Positions 703-27,867 of a stretch of 38,062 nucleotides of DNA are shown piece by piece. A program made the translations under genes and the position numbers. Source of the DNA: Ferrimicrobium acidiphilum DSM 19497. GTDB lineage: Bacteria; Actinomycetota; Acidimicrobiia; Acidimicrobiales; Acidimicrobiaceae. The DNA lies in contig NZ_JXUW01000027.1 in assembly GCF_000949255.1 (NCBI RefSeq), positions 1 to 38,062 on the forward strand, in the 5' to 3' direction. Within the stretch, counting starts at the first letter, position 1. Each line of letters begins with the position of its first letter. The notes under the pieces are model-generated. The model was not told the origin of the DNA. It worked only from the letters and a program-made list of their open reading frames with translations, and did no database searches.

Positions 703-1922
703 TGCACGCACGGATAGGAGCGCCTCGAAGAGCCAAGGCTATTGGTGTCGTGCCGGTAGCGCTAGCGTTCCTCATCTCCGCCTGCTCCTCCCCGACATCC
801 TCCAGCGCGCACAAGGTCACACCTGGAATGCACCTAACGCCGGTAGTGATCCCCACTGGCGCTCCGGTGTTCCTGGGTGGTGCTTCTGAGAGCGATGGCA
901 GCGGCCTGTTGACCTTTAATCCGCAGGTCCCGAGTTCGAACACACCAAAGCATTTCATCCCACCGGACTCGGCCTTGTTGGCCGGTGTATCGAGCAGCGG
1001 CAAGCTCCGACCACTGTTGACAATCGCCCAAGGACGTGCGCTGATATCCCCCTTCAAGCGCTCGGGCGGGAGCTTCGTCATGTCAGCATCATTCGTAAAC
1101 TCCAAGATCGGATGGGCCACGCTCTGGAGTGCCGTATCCGCTACAGGAATCGTCGTCAGGACGACTAGCGGAGGGAGATCTTGGTCCCGGATTAGAGGCA
1201 CCTACAGCGCGGGCAATGGCTCGAGTCTGATCGTCACCGCGGTGAACGCAACAACCGCTTGGCTGGAGATCACACCAGCGGGAGCGAATGTTAGTGACTA
1301 TTTCTACCGCATCACTGCTGCGGGCCAACAAGTCCAACCGGTCTGCCTCTGTGACGGAGGGCCGACGTTGCTCGGGGTGCTGAGCCAAAGCGATGCGATT
1401 GGAGCGATATCGCCATTGGACAACCAGCCGCCAACGCCGGCAGGTGTCTCATTCTTTACATTCTCGGACACCAAGAGCACAATCTGGACTCCTGCAACTC
1501 CTCTTCACTATGCGCTCGCTACAGGAGGGTTGCGTGAGCAGCCAGAGGTCGTCGGGATCACAATGGGACCACACAAAGGGATCAGCAACGTAGTGGTAGA
1601 GACGAATCATACCGTGAAGGCGAGGATCAGGATCTCGGATATTCACGACTTGCCTTCTGCCACCTTTGGCCCACACGGCTCCTTGCTTCTTGGGTGGGTA
1701 ACCGAACAGGGTGACGCGAAACTGGCACTCTTTGCCCCAGGTCAAAGCAAGCCGTATAGAACCGCGGACCTAGGCAGTATTGTCCCGAAACACGGAGGAG
1801 CGGGACCGATCGGACCTCAACCAGTGACAGTTCAGAGGGCAGGATCATCGTTTCTGGTGTTGAGTGCGGAATCGCTTCATAACTTTGGCGTTCTCAGGCG
1901 TGCCTGGACCGTGTCCGGCTGA
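702..1922 (+). CDS. Lipoprotein with BNR-like repeat, unknown function
   Basis: 406 residues from ATG 702. The N-terminus is a lipoprotein signal: RRAK, a hydrophobic stretch, then the lipobox LISAC with Cys at about residue 28, followed by a Ser/Thr-rich linker. This predicts a protein anchored outside the cytoplasmic membrane. Around residues 125-165 there is a beta-rich segment with TTSGGRSWS, a BNR/Asp-box-like motif of the Ycf48/sialidase propeller type, preceded by a sequence ending IGWATLW. The second half is probably also beta-rich but shows no named domain. The larger lipoprotein at 15077-17056 has the same general plan, and a decayed copy of the region around the BNR motif lies at 13825-14055. 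Function unknown; surface binding or envelope-assembly roles are possible. The start is set by the leaderless -10 box. Confidence 0.75.
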   Translation: MHARIGAPRRAKAIGVVPVALAFLISACSSPTSSSAHKVTPGMHLTPVVIPTGAPVFLGGASESDGSGLLTFNPQVPSSNTPKHFIPPDSALLAGVSSSGKLRPLLTIAQGRALISPFKRSGGSFVMSASFVNSKIGWATLWSAVSATGIVVRTTSGGRSWSRIRGTYSAGNGSSLIVTAVNATTAWLEITPAGANVSDYFYRITAAGQQVQPVCLCDGGPTLLGVLSQSDAIGAISPLDNQPPTPAGVSFFTFSDTKSTIWTPATPLHYALATGGLREQPEVVGITMGPHKGISNVVVETNHTVKARIRISDIHDLPSATFGPHGSLLLGWVTEQGDAKLALFAPGQSKPYRTADLGSIVPKHGGAGPIGPQPVTVQRAGSSFLVLSAESLHNFGVLRRAWTVSG

Positions 1923-3950: not shown

Positions 3951-4945
3951 CTACCCTCGGACGGGCTCGCATAGTTGAGGGCCTTGGGCTTGTTGGCTAT
4001 CAGTTGGCATCTGAGAAGTGTAGGTATCTGTGCTAAGGCTAAAGTACAGCTTGGCGCCAGTCGTCGTCGAAACTACAACTCCGCCTGGAAGAACGTTGTC
4101 AATGGTAGTCAATTGAAGACCACTCGGAGCTGGGAACGTCTTTCGCTTCGCTGAGTCGTACCCAAAAAGAGATGTAGTCGCCGGAGTGATCGGGACTGCT
4201 GCGTCTGTCCATGGCTGGAGCGCGATCTGCGAATCGGTGATATGTCCAGATGGACTAGAGTTATCTTGGACCACACCACCTATGAGATGAACGCGTGTGG
4301 TGCTCGCACCTGGGGTTACACAGACGAAGGCGCCGACGGTGGATAATTGGATACCTGGAACCTCGAAGCCATTTACAACCGGCACTTTAGAGATAGGAGT
4401 AGAGGTAAATGTCCAGCCAGAGGCAGTCATATTGCCATAGCCGGATCCAGCCTCTGCCAACACGCCAATCTCGTGATTGTACTGCTGGGTCAAAGACTCC
4501 TGTCCGGCTTGAGCCTGTTGCTGGAGTTGCGAGACTTGCTTGGATGACCTATGGCCTGCATTGGGACTCTCTACGTCCTCTAGCGTTCTAAGAAAGATCG
4601 ACTGCAGGGTACTGGAGGAGGAGGGATTCGACGGCGTGGATGCTGGGTTCCATGCAAAACTTCTGGCTACCGCTAGGTAGTTATCCTGGAAATGTTGGGG
4701 CCAATGCTGAAATTCTTGAACTTCAGTGCTGGATAGATCCTGTAAGCTCCACTCAGCACGAGTGCTCCCGGAGAACCTTGGCGGAAGACTCACGCTATCA
4801 ACAACATGGGTGGATGGATCTCGCGCATGTGCGGTGCCAACAGTGATAACTACTGCACCAAGAACTAGAGCGCCAATGGAAACCAGGGAAACCGCCCGAT
4901 GATTTTTGATAAGCCGCCCGATGGATTCTACTTGCGTTTACTCAC
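3951..4945 (-). CDS. Exported protein of unknown function, apparent frameshift in the signal sequence
   Basis: The uninterrupted frame from GTG 4793 gives 280 residues but no signal. The same frame stays open upstream to about 4936 and encodes a textbook export segment: RLIKNHRAVSLVSIGALVLG, then AVVITVGTAHA. It has no start codon. The best start is GTG 4945, followed by S-K-R-K and then TAG in the other frame. A one-base indel near 4931 would join them. The mature protein has a Ser/Pro linker, a Gln-rich probable coiled coil (VSQLQQQAQAGQESLTQQ, about residues 85-105 from GTG 4793) and a beta-rich C-terminal half ending GAKLYFSLSTDTYTS. The neighbouring protein at 5203 has the same plan. Function unknown. 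Confidence 0.55.
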
Positions 4946-5202
4946 CTTTCTCGGATAGGTCCGGAGGGCACTGGACGGCCCTTTGCTGCCGACACAACAA
5001 TAATACATGTCAGTAACGCATTGGGCTAACGAACGGTATGCGATCCACCTGAAGCGCGAGTGGGTCGAGTGGAGTGGAGATGCGACAAACGCTCATAATC
5101 CAAAGGTCGCACGTGTGGAGAGCCACATCATTGCAAGAGTCGCAGGGCTGATCGATAGCGAGCACAAACGGAAAGTGATAGGATCACAGCACGAGAGCTC
5201 TA

Positions 5203-5844
5203 GTGAATGTGTTCCCTGAGATAACCAAGAATCGCAAGGTACTCTATATTGGAGGTGTAGCGGCAGCCGTGGTGGTTGCAGGCTCGCTTTCGCTAATGAT
5301 GCCAAAGAGTTCGGGCGCGTCAGAGTTGCCAGGGTTGTCCGGTCTGACGCCTGCGAAGGCCGCTCATCTGCAACAGCAGATCTTGGCTCAACAGCAGGAG
5401 AGCGCGTCGAACCATTCCACTCAAAGTTATGCTCAAGGACTTGCTCAGGTGCAAAAATCATCTGTTCCGGCGTCCAAGTTGCCTTTTCCCACTGGAATTC
5501 AGAACATCAAGCAGTCGGGCCTGGGTCCATCGTTCATCGTCTCGAATGAATGGGATACGGTCATGAACAGTACAGAATATGTTGTCTACTGCGGTGGTGT
5601 GGCGTCAGCTGCCGACTTAACGACAGGCGGCTCGGCTGTTACGACTGGCGCGGTTGAGGTCTGGAAGAATATCGACTCAGGAGCAACAGCTACCCCTCAA
5701 GAGGTCGGTCTCTACAAGTTTGCGGGATCAGCGTCATCAGCGCTTAAGGCCACCAGCGCATCTGAAAGCACTGTTACTTTGGCCTACAAGACCGGAACGG
5801 TCACGTTTGACCTTGCAAACGATTCCTTTTTGCCATCATCGTAA
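5203..5844 (+). CDS. Exported or anchored protein of unknown function
   Basis: 213 residues from GTG 5203 (an alternative GTG lies at 5209). Residues 10-30 (KVLYIGGVAAAVVVAGSLSL) are a signal sequence or membrane anchor. A Gln-rich helix follows (HLQQQILAQQQESASNH, about 48-65), then a beta-rich domain from about residue 105 to the end (EYVVYCGGVASA, TVTFDLAND). This signal, Gln-rich helix and beta-domain order matches the divergent neighbour at 3951-4945, and both end in a TGT/TGA-(V/K)..F.L..D element. They may be distant paralogues. Two exported proteins side by side suggest a surface role, but no known domain is recognised. Confidence 0.6.
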   Translation: MNVFPEITKNRKVLYIGGVAAAVVVAGSLSLMMPKSSGASELPGLSGLTPAKAAHLQQQILAQQQESASNHSTQSYAQGLAQVQKSSVPASKLPFPTGIQNIKQSGLGPSFIVSNEWDTVMNSTEYVVYCGGVASAADLTTGGSAVTTGAVEVWKNIDSGATATPQEVGLYKFAGSASSALKATSASESTVTLAYKTGTVTFDLANDSFLPSS

Positions 5845-26675: not shown

Positions 26676-27085
26676 CTCGATTAACGAGCACACAGTATAG
26701 GGATCTAACAATAGTCATGCGGTGAGGCTCAACTTCGAAGCTCTCTGCAAAGCATGTACCAGGTGCTCATCGGTTTAATATCCAAAACGTTAACCTCCGG
26801 CCAGCTAAGGACTCTCTCACATCTCCTCCTCGCTCAGTCGGTCGATCCAGACCTCGGTGTTGAGCGTGGGTGGAACTGTCCGACCTTGTTCACAACGCGT
26901 TCTCCGGTGTTGGTCGTGGGCACCTTTGAGAACCTCAGCTCGTTTTTCGGTAATCAACTCCGCGTATCCCTCGTGAACATCAGCTGGGGCCATGAGCGCA
27001 GTACCTGAATGGTGCTCGTACTGGTACCAGGTGAGGACCTTTGTAAAAAAGGTCCTCGCCTCTTCTATGGATTCAAAACATTCAA
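26676..27085. other. Intergenic, no gene recognised
   Basis: About 410 bases between the reductase gene and the group II intron relic. CTCG-ATTAA-CGAG just after the stop is a weak hairpin. An 84-codon plus frame at 26754-27008 shows no motif. Confidence 0.4.
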
Positions 27086-27420
27086 GAAGTAGGGGCGGGA
27101 GGGGAGCTCGCCTCTCTCATCAAACCGGACGTGAACCTCTCGAATCATCCGGATCCGGACTCGCAGCTGCGATGTGTTGGCTTATCTTCGTTGCTGAATT
27201 GGCTAGTCCATATAACTGCCCATTCGCCCACGGCCTTTGCTCTGGGGCCATTACGGCTGGACGGCCCCTTCATCACTACCAAGCCACAGTTCGCCTCAGT
27301 GCATCGCATCCGGTACTCTCGCCTTCGGCTTTTAGCCTGAACTTACCCCACTACCCCAACACATCCCTACTCCTACCTGGGGTTTTGGTTCATCGAAGGG
27401 GTAATATTACTGTCACACGG
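27086..27420 (-). ncRNA. ORF-less group II intron relic (domains V and VI recognisable)
   Basis: On the minus strand 27155-27121 aligns base for base with group II domain V: GATCCGGAT, GATTC, GAGA tetraloop, GGTTC, ACGTCCGGTT. The pattern is GA.CCG.AU, five-base stem, GNRA loop, five-base stem, ACGU.CGGUU. The catalytic AGC triad position reads A-T-C. A domain VI-like hairpin follows (GAGGCGAGCTCC, then CCTCCC) and ends about 27086 in CCCTACTTC. Upstream, structured sequence extends to GTGTGAC at about 27418, a group II-like 5' end (GUGYG) lying exactly at the stop of the transposase relic. There is no reverse transcriptase. At about 335 bases it is short even for an ORF-less intron, so it is probably a decayed one. 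Confidence 0.55.
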
Positions 27421-27799
27421 GTATTTTGGCTCCAATCAGTTCAAAGGCTCGTCGTTGGGTTGGGGTTGGAGTAGAGGTCTTTTGGAAGGTCGCCTCGGCT
27501 CCAGTTACCCGACAGGTACTGCGAGTAAGGGTGTCGAGTTCTATCAACAGCGAGCGAAAGCTCATGACCGCATCACCATTGGTGTTTACTTTCTCGGCGG
27601 CCTTAGCCTTGGCTGAGGCTGAGACGACCTTCTTGGCGACCGGGGAGACCGGTAGCGGAGGGTCCTCATCTTTAAACGTCAACTCGGCTAGCCTTTCCTT
27701 GGCCAGATGCAGCAGGTGAGCTGCCAAGACACAGAGAAAAACGTGGGCTCGTACTCGGCTCCCAAGATAGAGCCTCGCAACTTCCGGACCGTTGGCTAT
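27413..27799 (-). pseudogene. IS1634/IS4-type transposase C-terminal relic
   Basis: The minus-strand frame reads VARLYLGSRVRAHVFLCVLA, then AHLLHLAKERLAELTFKDED, a low-complexity Ala/Lys linker, SFRSLLIELDTLTRSTCRV and TPTPTQRRAFELIGAKIPV before TGA. The R.R.H.F......L block and the final LA.LTR....., TPLQ..A.ELL.. tail are typical of IS1634-family DDE transposases. The catalytic DD part and N-terminus are absent; a stop lies just upstream at 27800-27802. Confidence 0.65.
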
Positions 27800-27867
27800 T
27801 CACGCTCAAAACCCCGTGTCTCGGCATCACCCAATCTCCAAAGGTTGATCATCAAGCCACGCTACAG

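Follow-up and report, generated by a model that had tools for sequence, protein, structure and literature searches.

A 3' fragment of an ORF-less group II intron, very probably inactive, between remnants of two insertion sequences in Ferrimicrobium acidiphilum

On the minus strand of contig NZ_JXUW01000027.1 of Ferrimicrobium acidiphilum DSM 19497, a stretch of about 335 bases (27420-27086) ends in a sequence resembling domain V (DV) of group II introns, and we were interested whether the whole of this stretch is an intron. All positions refer to the analysed window, i.e. the 38,062 nucleotides at positions 1 to 38,062 of the contig. The original prediction had been an intron relic of about 335 bases that begins with GTGTGAC at the stop codon of a transposase relic. 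Comparison with related loci showed that the stretch is a chimera, in which the group II intron part is 27336-27089 (-) only, approximately 248 nt long and missing its 5' end, and is enclosed by the remains of two insertion sequences (IS) of different families (Table 1). We consider it very probable that this part is an inactive 3' fragment of an ORF-less intron which had entered an IS3-family transposase gene and was itself entered by an IS1634-family element before the 5' parts were lost.

Table 1. Features of the chimeric stretch and its surroundings in the window.
Feature	Position	Strand	Basis or remark
3' part of degraded IS1634-family IS	27337..27775	-	transposase residues ~458-575 of 577 and right terminal repeat
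3' third of ORF-less group II intron	27089..27336	-	nhmmer E 1.1e-51, model positions 430-684; BLAST matches in 14/60 genomes, own included
Domain V with two T-T mismatches	27122..27155	-	RF00029 alignment, position, pair counts
Catalytic triad position, ATC in place of AGC	27152..27154	-	alignment A1
Domain VI remnant, ends CTAC	27089..27121	-	alignments with relatives
3' exon, 3' part of IS3-family transposase gene	26808..27088	-	has indels vs intact copies

The intron fragment corresponds to about nt 451-684 of a 684-nt copy from a relative, and it was recognised by a family profile made from seven full-length relatives (L004, L075, L076, L077, L079, L081 and L082), the window being excluded. 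As this match (Table 1) stands against no match at E 10 in 20 block-shuffled windows, chance is excluded and the DV is real. Of the intron domains, the fragment retains DV, domain VI (DVI) and the last part of the D1-D4 core, and its homology to the lineage of ORF-less introns in the bacterial family of the window includes a short linker in place of the ORF (ACTAGCCAA...AGCCAACAC...CAGCTGCGAG), which could be aligned between the window copy and this lineage. At 676-733 nt the seven full-length relatives, in which no stop-to-stop frame exceeds 163 codons, are too short for a reverse transcriptase (RT) and thus form an ORF-less lineage, which bears out the predicted relic of an intron of this kind. 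The absence of an RT had been noted correctly as well, since none was seen by eye among the ORFs around the fragment and the RT matches of the genome sit on other contigs. At its 3' end the window intron reads ...CCCGCCCCTAC at 27089, and the relatives end in ...CCCGCCACCCTAC (L081 CACTCTAC, L004 CACCCTGC) and then diverge, with L080 differing there. At E up to 10, the matches listed for 26700-27800 do not include the D1-D4 family, because intron nt ~69-203, a part carried by the relatives, are absent from the fragment; when intron nt 1-448 were searched across the window, only chance-level matches were obtained. A circularly permuted intron was considered and rejected, there being no D1-D4 match among those listed within 26700-27800. 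Matches to the stretch elsewhere in its own genome split in two, with query positions 10-124 leading to contig C6 and 128-367 to contig C8.

Contig C6 holds an IS (L005) that encodes, in an open frame, a 577-aa IS1634-family transposase (NF033559, E 3.9e-86). The terminal repeats of this IS begin CTGAACTTACCCCAGCCA, and at 27337 the window relic ends with the same repeat, whose last bases are GGGGTAAGTTCAG. The relic matches this transposase at 74.6% on the amino acid level, and at the DNA level 27451-27337 and the end of the L005 IS share 80% identity (72% over 27770-27337). Membership of 27775-27337 in the IS1634 family follows from the terminal repeat and the transposase family of the L005 copy; taken by itself, the window reading 27727-27413 matches no NCBIfam or Pfam family. 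For transposase residues 1-457 and the left terminal repeat, nothing above chance level was found in the window. In the L005 locus, a 27-bp direct repeat (96%; 6964-6938 and 4976-4950) flanks the IS copy. Upstream in the window, 27987-27868 (-) is a short reading that is CsrA-like by eye, and further pieces of 28282-27812 match other genomes of the family (e.g. G006:C3 and G009:C123), the mosaic continuing in this direction.

The group II intron 5' end consensus is GUGYG, and the GTGTG at 27418 resembles it; together with a real DV/DVI at the opposite end of the stretch, this would suit a complete, unusually short ORF-less intron of about 335 nt that has the stop codon of the upstream transposase gene as its insertion site. 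Such an intron is scarcely credible, as GTGTGAC (27418-27412) lies within the IS1634-family end and holds the stop codon of its transposase, and the L005 copy has the same stop codon and the same end without any intron. Moreover, the 5' end of the relatives reads GTGTGCTGTGAATGC or similar and lies 676-733 nt from their 3' end, and D1-D4 is lacking among the matches listed. The junction between IS and intron was also seen in a family-wide search, where IS matches reaching the end stop at query 2164-2171 (27337-27330), with one exception at 2184 (G013:C64) running 20 bases beyond the IS end, and intron matches beginning at the junction start at query 2163-2170, with one exception at 2152 (G019:C73), 11 bases earlier. 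Given these two exceptions and an intron profile alignment that extends to 27349, past the IS end, the junction is exact from the L005 repeat only.

The gene that received the intron is not the upstream transposase gene, as had been proposed, but the IS3-family transposase gene on the 3' side. This 3' exon matches residues 269-360 of the L186 reading at 70% on the amino acid level (tblastn E 1.7e-30), and as L186 belongs to the IS3 family (NF033516, E 2.4e-58), 27088-26808 is assigned to this family by way of L186. From 27084 to 26737 the DNA is 80-82% identical to three copies in the same genome, L186, L187 and L188, and a fourth copy, L189 (79%), matches from 27033 on only. L186, L187 and L188 read through the 3' junction of the intron uninterrupted (...YRGD|FPERFETIEEAR...), the site being GGGGAC|TTC in L186 and L188 and GGAGAC|TTC in L187. 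The search for empty sites suggested with the prediction was thereby answered in part, by uninterrupted copies of the gene in the same genome but not at the same locus. Since AC is common to both sides, the 3' junction is uncertain by about 3 bases. Immediately past the junction, the IS3 copy of the window is one base short, and it carries additional indels; its 5' exon could not be located within the window.

From this arrangement we infer the following order of events. An intron of the ORF-less lineage would have entered the IS3-family transposase gene in sense direction at ...GRGGAC/GGAGAC|TTC..., the intron would later have received an IS1634-family element, and a subsequent loss of the 5' portions of all three (IS, intron and host gene) would have left three remnants end to end. 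Alternatively, the intron may have been truncated at its 5' end during insertion by incomplete reverse transcription, with the IS1634-family element brought beside it by a later rearrangement. We regard this as very unlikely: it would agree with an intron 3' end and 3' exon that are in order and with a 5' exon not found in the window, but the intron homology begins, to within about a base, where the IS terminal repeat stops, as is expected when an IS inserts into an intron. As the window yielded neither the left end of the IS nor a target duplication, the 5' intron or the 5' exon, recombination of separate pieces could give the same order.

Several lesions in DV and DVI of the window copy speak for an inactive fragment. 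RF00029 aligns to 27157-27084 (-) with 28.9 bits (E 0.002 for 1.1 kb), below its gathering score of 40, and no match in the Rfam search of the window reaches the gathering score. Of the proposed covariance-model check, the DV part was thus obtained, albeit below gathering, and the D1-D4 part was not among the matches listed. Together with the family profile, this alignment places DV at 27155-27122 (-), on the minus strand as predicted. For comparison we used an alignment of 13 rows (A1), which leaves out L080 (3' end differs), the partial copies L083, L086, L087, L131 and L134-L137, and the matches with domain V only or with an RT (L124-L130, L138-L140 and L181-L185). The catalytic triad is AGC in 10 of its 13 rows, compared to AGG in L133, GGC in L084 and ATC in the window (27154-27152), where the altered triad had been pointed out before. 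All 13 DV pairs are formed in the same 10 rows that carry AGC; mismatches occur at two pairs in the window, both T-T, at two in L084 and at one in L133. In DVI the window copy lacks part of the 5' strand of the stem and the A seven bases from the intron end (-7) that the relatives have, the probable branch point. Folding, the remaining proposed check, gave no support, as the 337-nt stretch has a z-score of 0.88 and 80 of 100 shuffles were as good. The window copy therefore does not show what characterises a functional group II intron, namely an AGC triad with a paired DV stem, domains I-IV, a bulged branch A in DVI and a GUGYG 5' end. Judged from these alignments, the window DV belongs to group II introns by descent and not as an active member. 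With D1-D4 missing, the triad changed from AGC to ATC, a second T-T mismatch in DV, the probable branch A missing and a fold no better than shuffles, the copy looks like a dead remnant left by ordinary intron decay, and all splicing activity would have been lost.

Related introns, which had been suggested as a check of the prediction, do exist in related genomes and include near-complete ORF-less copies. For the window's own genome, the best named relatives of a neighbouring protein (67-73% identity) point to a probable Acidimicrobiaceae-like actinobacterium. When the 253-nt fragment was used as query, matches were found as given in Table 1, and a 684-nt relative as query gave matches in 20 of 42 genomes of the window's family, own included. 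Ten copies among 31 loci scanned span the profile from position 1 to 663 or beyond; in eight of these (L004, L075, L076, L077, L079, L080, L081 and L132) both RF01999 (D1-D4-2) and RF00029 exceed the gathering score, which no Rfam match in L082 or L084 does. For full-length copies, L075 and L077 among them, the splice junction would be GTGTGCTG...CACCCTAC. In the ten copies, the last six bases of the 5' exon pair with one intron column with a score of 95, compared to a maximum of 67 in 300 permutations, the pairing at this best EBS1 column being poor in three copies (L075, 1; L076, -2; L082, 4). This result fits an EBS1-IBS1 interaction and supports insertion by retrohoming for the ORF-less family, though it is not tied to the window copy. 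Intact members would be expected to splice, and to insert through pairing of EBS1 with IBS1, while an RmInt1-type reverse transcriptase/maturase would presumably provide the protein in trans. When the exons of relatives were joined and searched for open frames as a sign of gene interruption, seven of nine loci gave a joint and no convincing frame was found; frames of at least 120 codons cross the joint in three of the seven (L075, L076 and L079; two on the minus strand, one on the plus strand). Among 72,556 plasmid records, 345 match a 684-nt relative, none with a place covering 80% or more, and among the papers listed in the literature searches we recognised none on group II introns of Acidimicrobia. 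Three further loci deserve mention. In L004 (G000:C8) a 5' fragment (4438-4612, profile 2-165) directly abuts a full-length ORF-less copy (4614-5288), as if one intron had entered another, with no match to the remainder of the outer copy at E 1e-3. L131 (G019:C138, 2149-1805 (-)) is a strongly shortened copy of about 345 nt without matches to profile positions 83-291 and 543-610. In L136 (G001:C116), the c-di-GMP-II-GAG riboswitch model matches 1015-1099 (-), near the intron copy, with 54 bits and thus over gathering.

RT-bearing relatives point to the origin of this family. L140, L181 and L183 match the family profile up to position 537, approximately the start of the RT frame, and in L140, from the same order, domain V follows the RT. 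The L140 protein (P0001) is a group II RT/maturase (TIGR04416, E 1.3e-119; RVT_1 and GIIM). The ltrA intron of Sinorhizobium meliloti pSymA (CP140947), which we take to be RmInt1-type, matches the profile on both sides of ltrA (51-537, E 4.1e-47; 610-680, E 1.5e-6), and P0001 is 51% identical to its ltrA over 404 residues. Of the matching RT class, the window's genome shows only a 158-residue piece with one TAG (C20:35931-36404), and the loci of the other RTs and domain V copies of this genome (L023-L031) gave no family-profile match at E 1. In one tblastn search the query was the C54 RT alone. At E 1e-20, P0001 gave no RT match in G006 and G020 and matches of only 32-34% in G003 and G062. These four genomes, three of which are only 73-83% complete (G003, 97%), each hold a full-length ORF-less copy (L075, L077, L079 and L132). 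That the ORF-less lineage might spread, or persist splicing-competent, in genomes where its own RT class is not present in intact form, relying on host factors or on RTs from other intron classes, appears rather unlikely to us. Other intron copies were seen alongside. In L138 (G001:C69, 2482-2217 (-)), domain V-VI follows what looks by eye like the C-terminus of an RT and lies just upstream of a D1 segment, an order that is either tandem or circularly permuted. Contigs C21, C54, C18, C29 and C48 of G000 carry five domain V copies (58.1-59.5 bits), which belong to an intron class not matched by the family profile; the RT matches near domain V contain a stop on C18 and C48 and none on C54. A weak domain V (G000:C23:39036-39102, 32.9 bits) lies in surroundings without a family-profile match at E 1.

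The window feature itself is a case of ordinary decay, and through it we came upon a spread-out family of ORF-less introns in the bacterial family of the window. As ORF-less introns are described in a review as rare in bacteria and nearly always found in genomes with related IEP-bearing introns (PMC4424553), this family could serve to test how such introns move without a protein of their own. Through the CP140947 ltrA intron, probably of RmInt1 type, the family would share RNA with the RmInt1-type introns of Sinorhizobium, RmInt1 being described as IIB3/class D (PMC5894124), and the natural target of RmInt1 is likewise reported to lie in an insertion sequence (PMC4496777). Unlike these introns, the family has no RT, and the window copy moreover lacks the 5' two thirds. 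The simplest reading by analogy would be loss of the ORF from DIV followed by spread, as reported for the ORF-less TeI3 introns of Thermosynechococcus elongatus, whose mobilisation relies on IEPs that related introns supply in trans (PMC2882425); according to the same source T. elongatus has these driver IEPs, whereas the genome of the window has only a broken piece of the matching RT class. As a fragment, the window copy resembles the long-lived RmInt1-like fragment FRE652, for which 3'-end loss is given as the general course of intron decay; FRE652 is described as retaining DI-DIII and part of DIV with its 3' end lost (PMC5894124), whereas the window copy has retained the 3' end and lost the 5' part.
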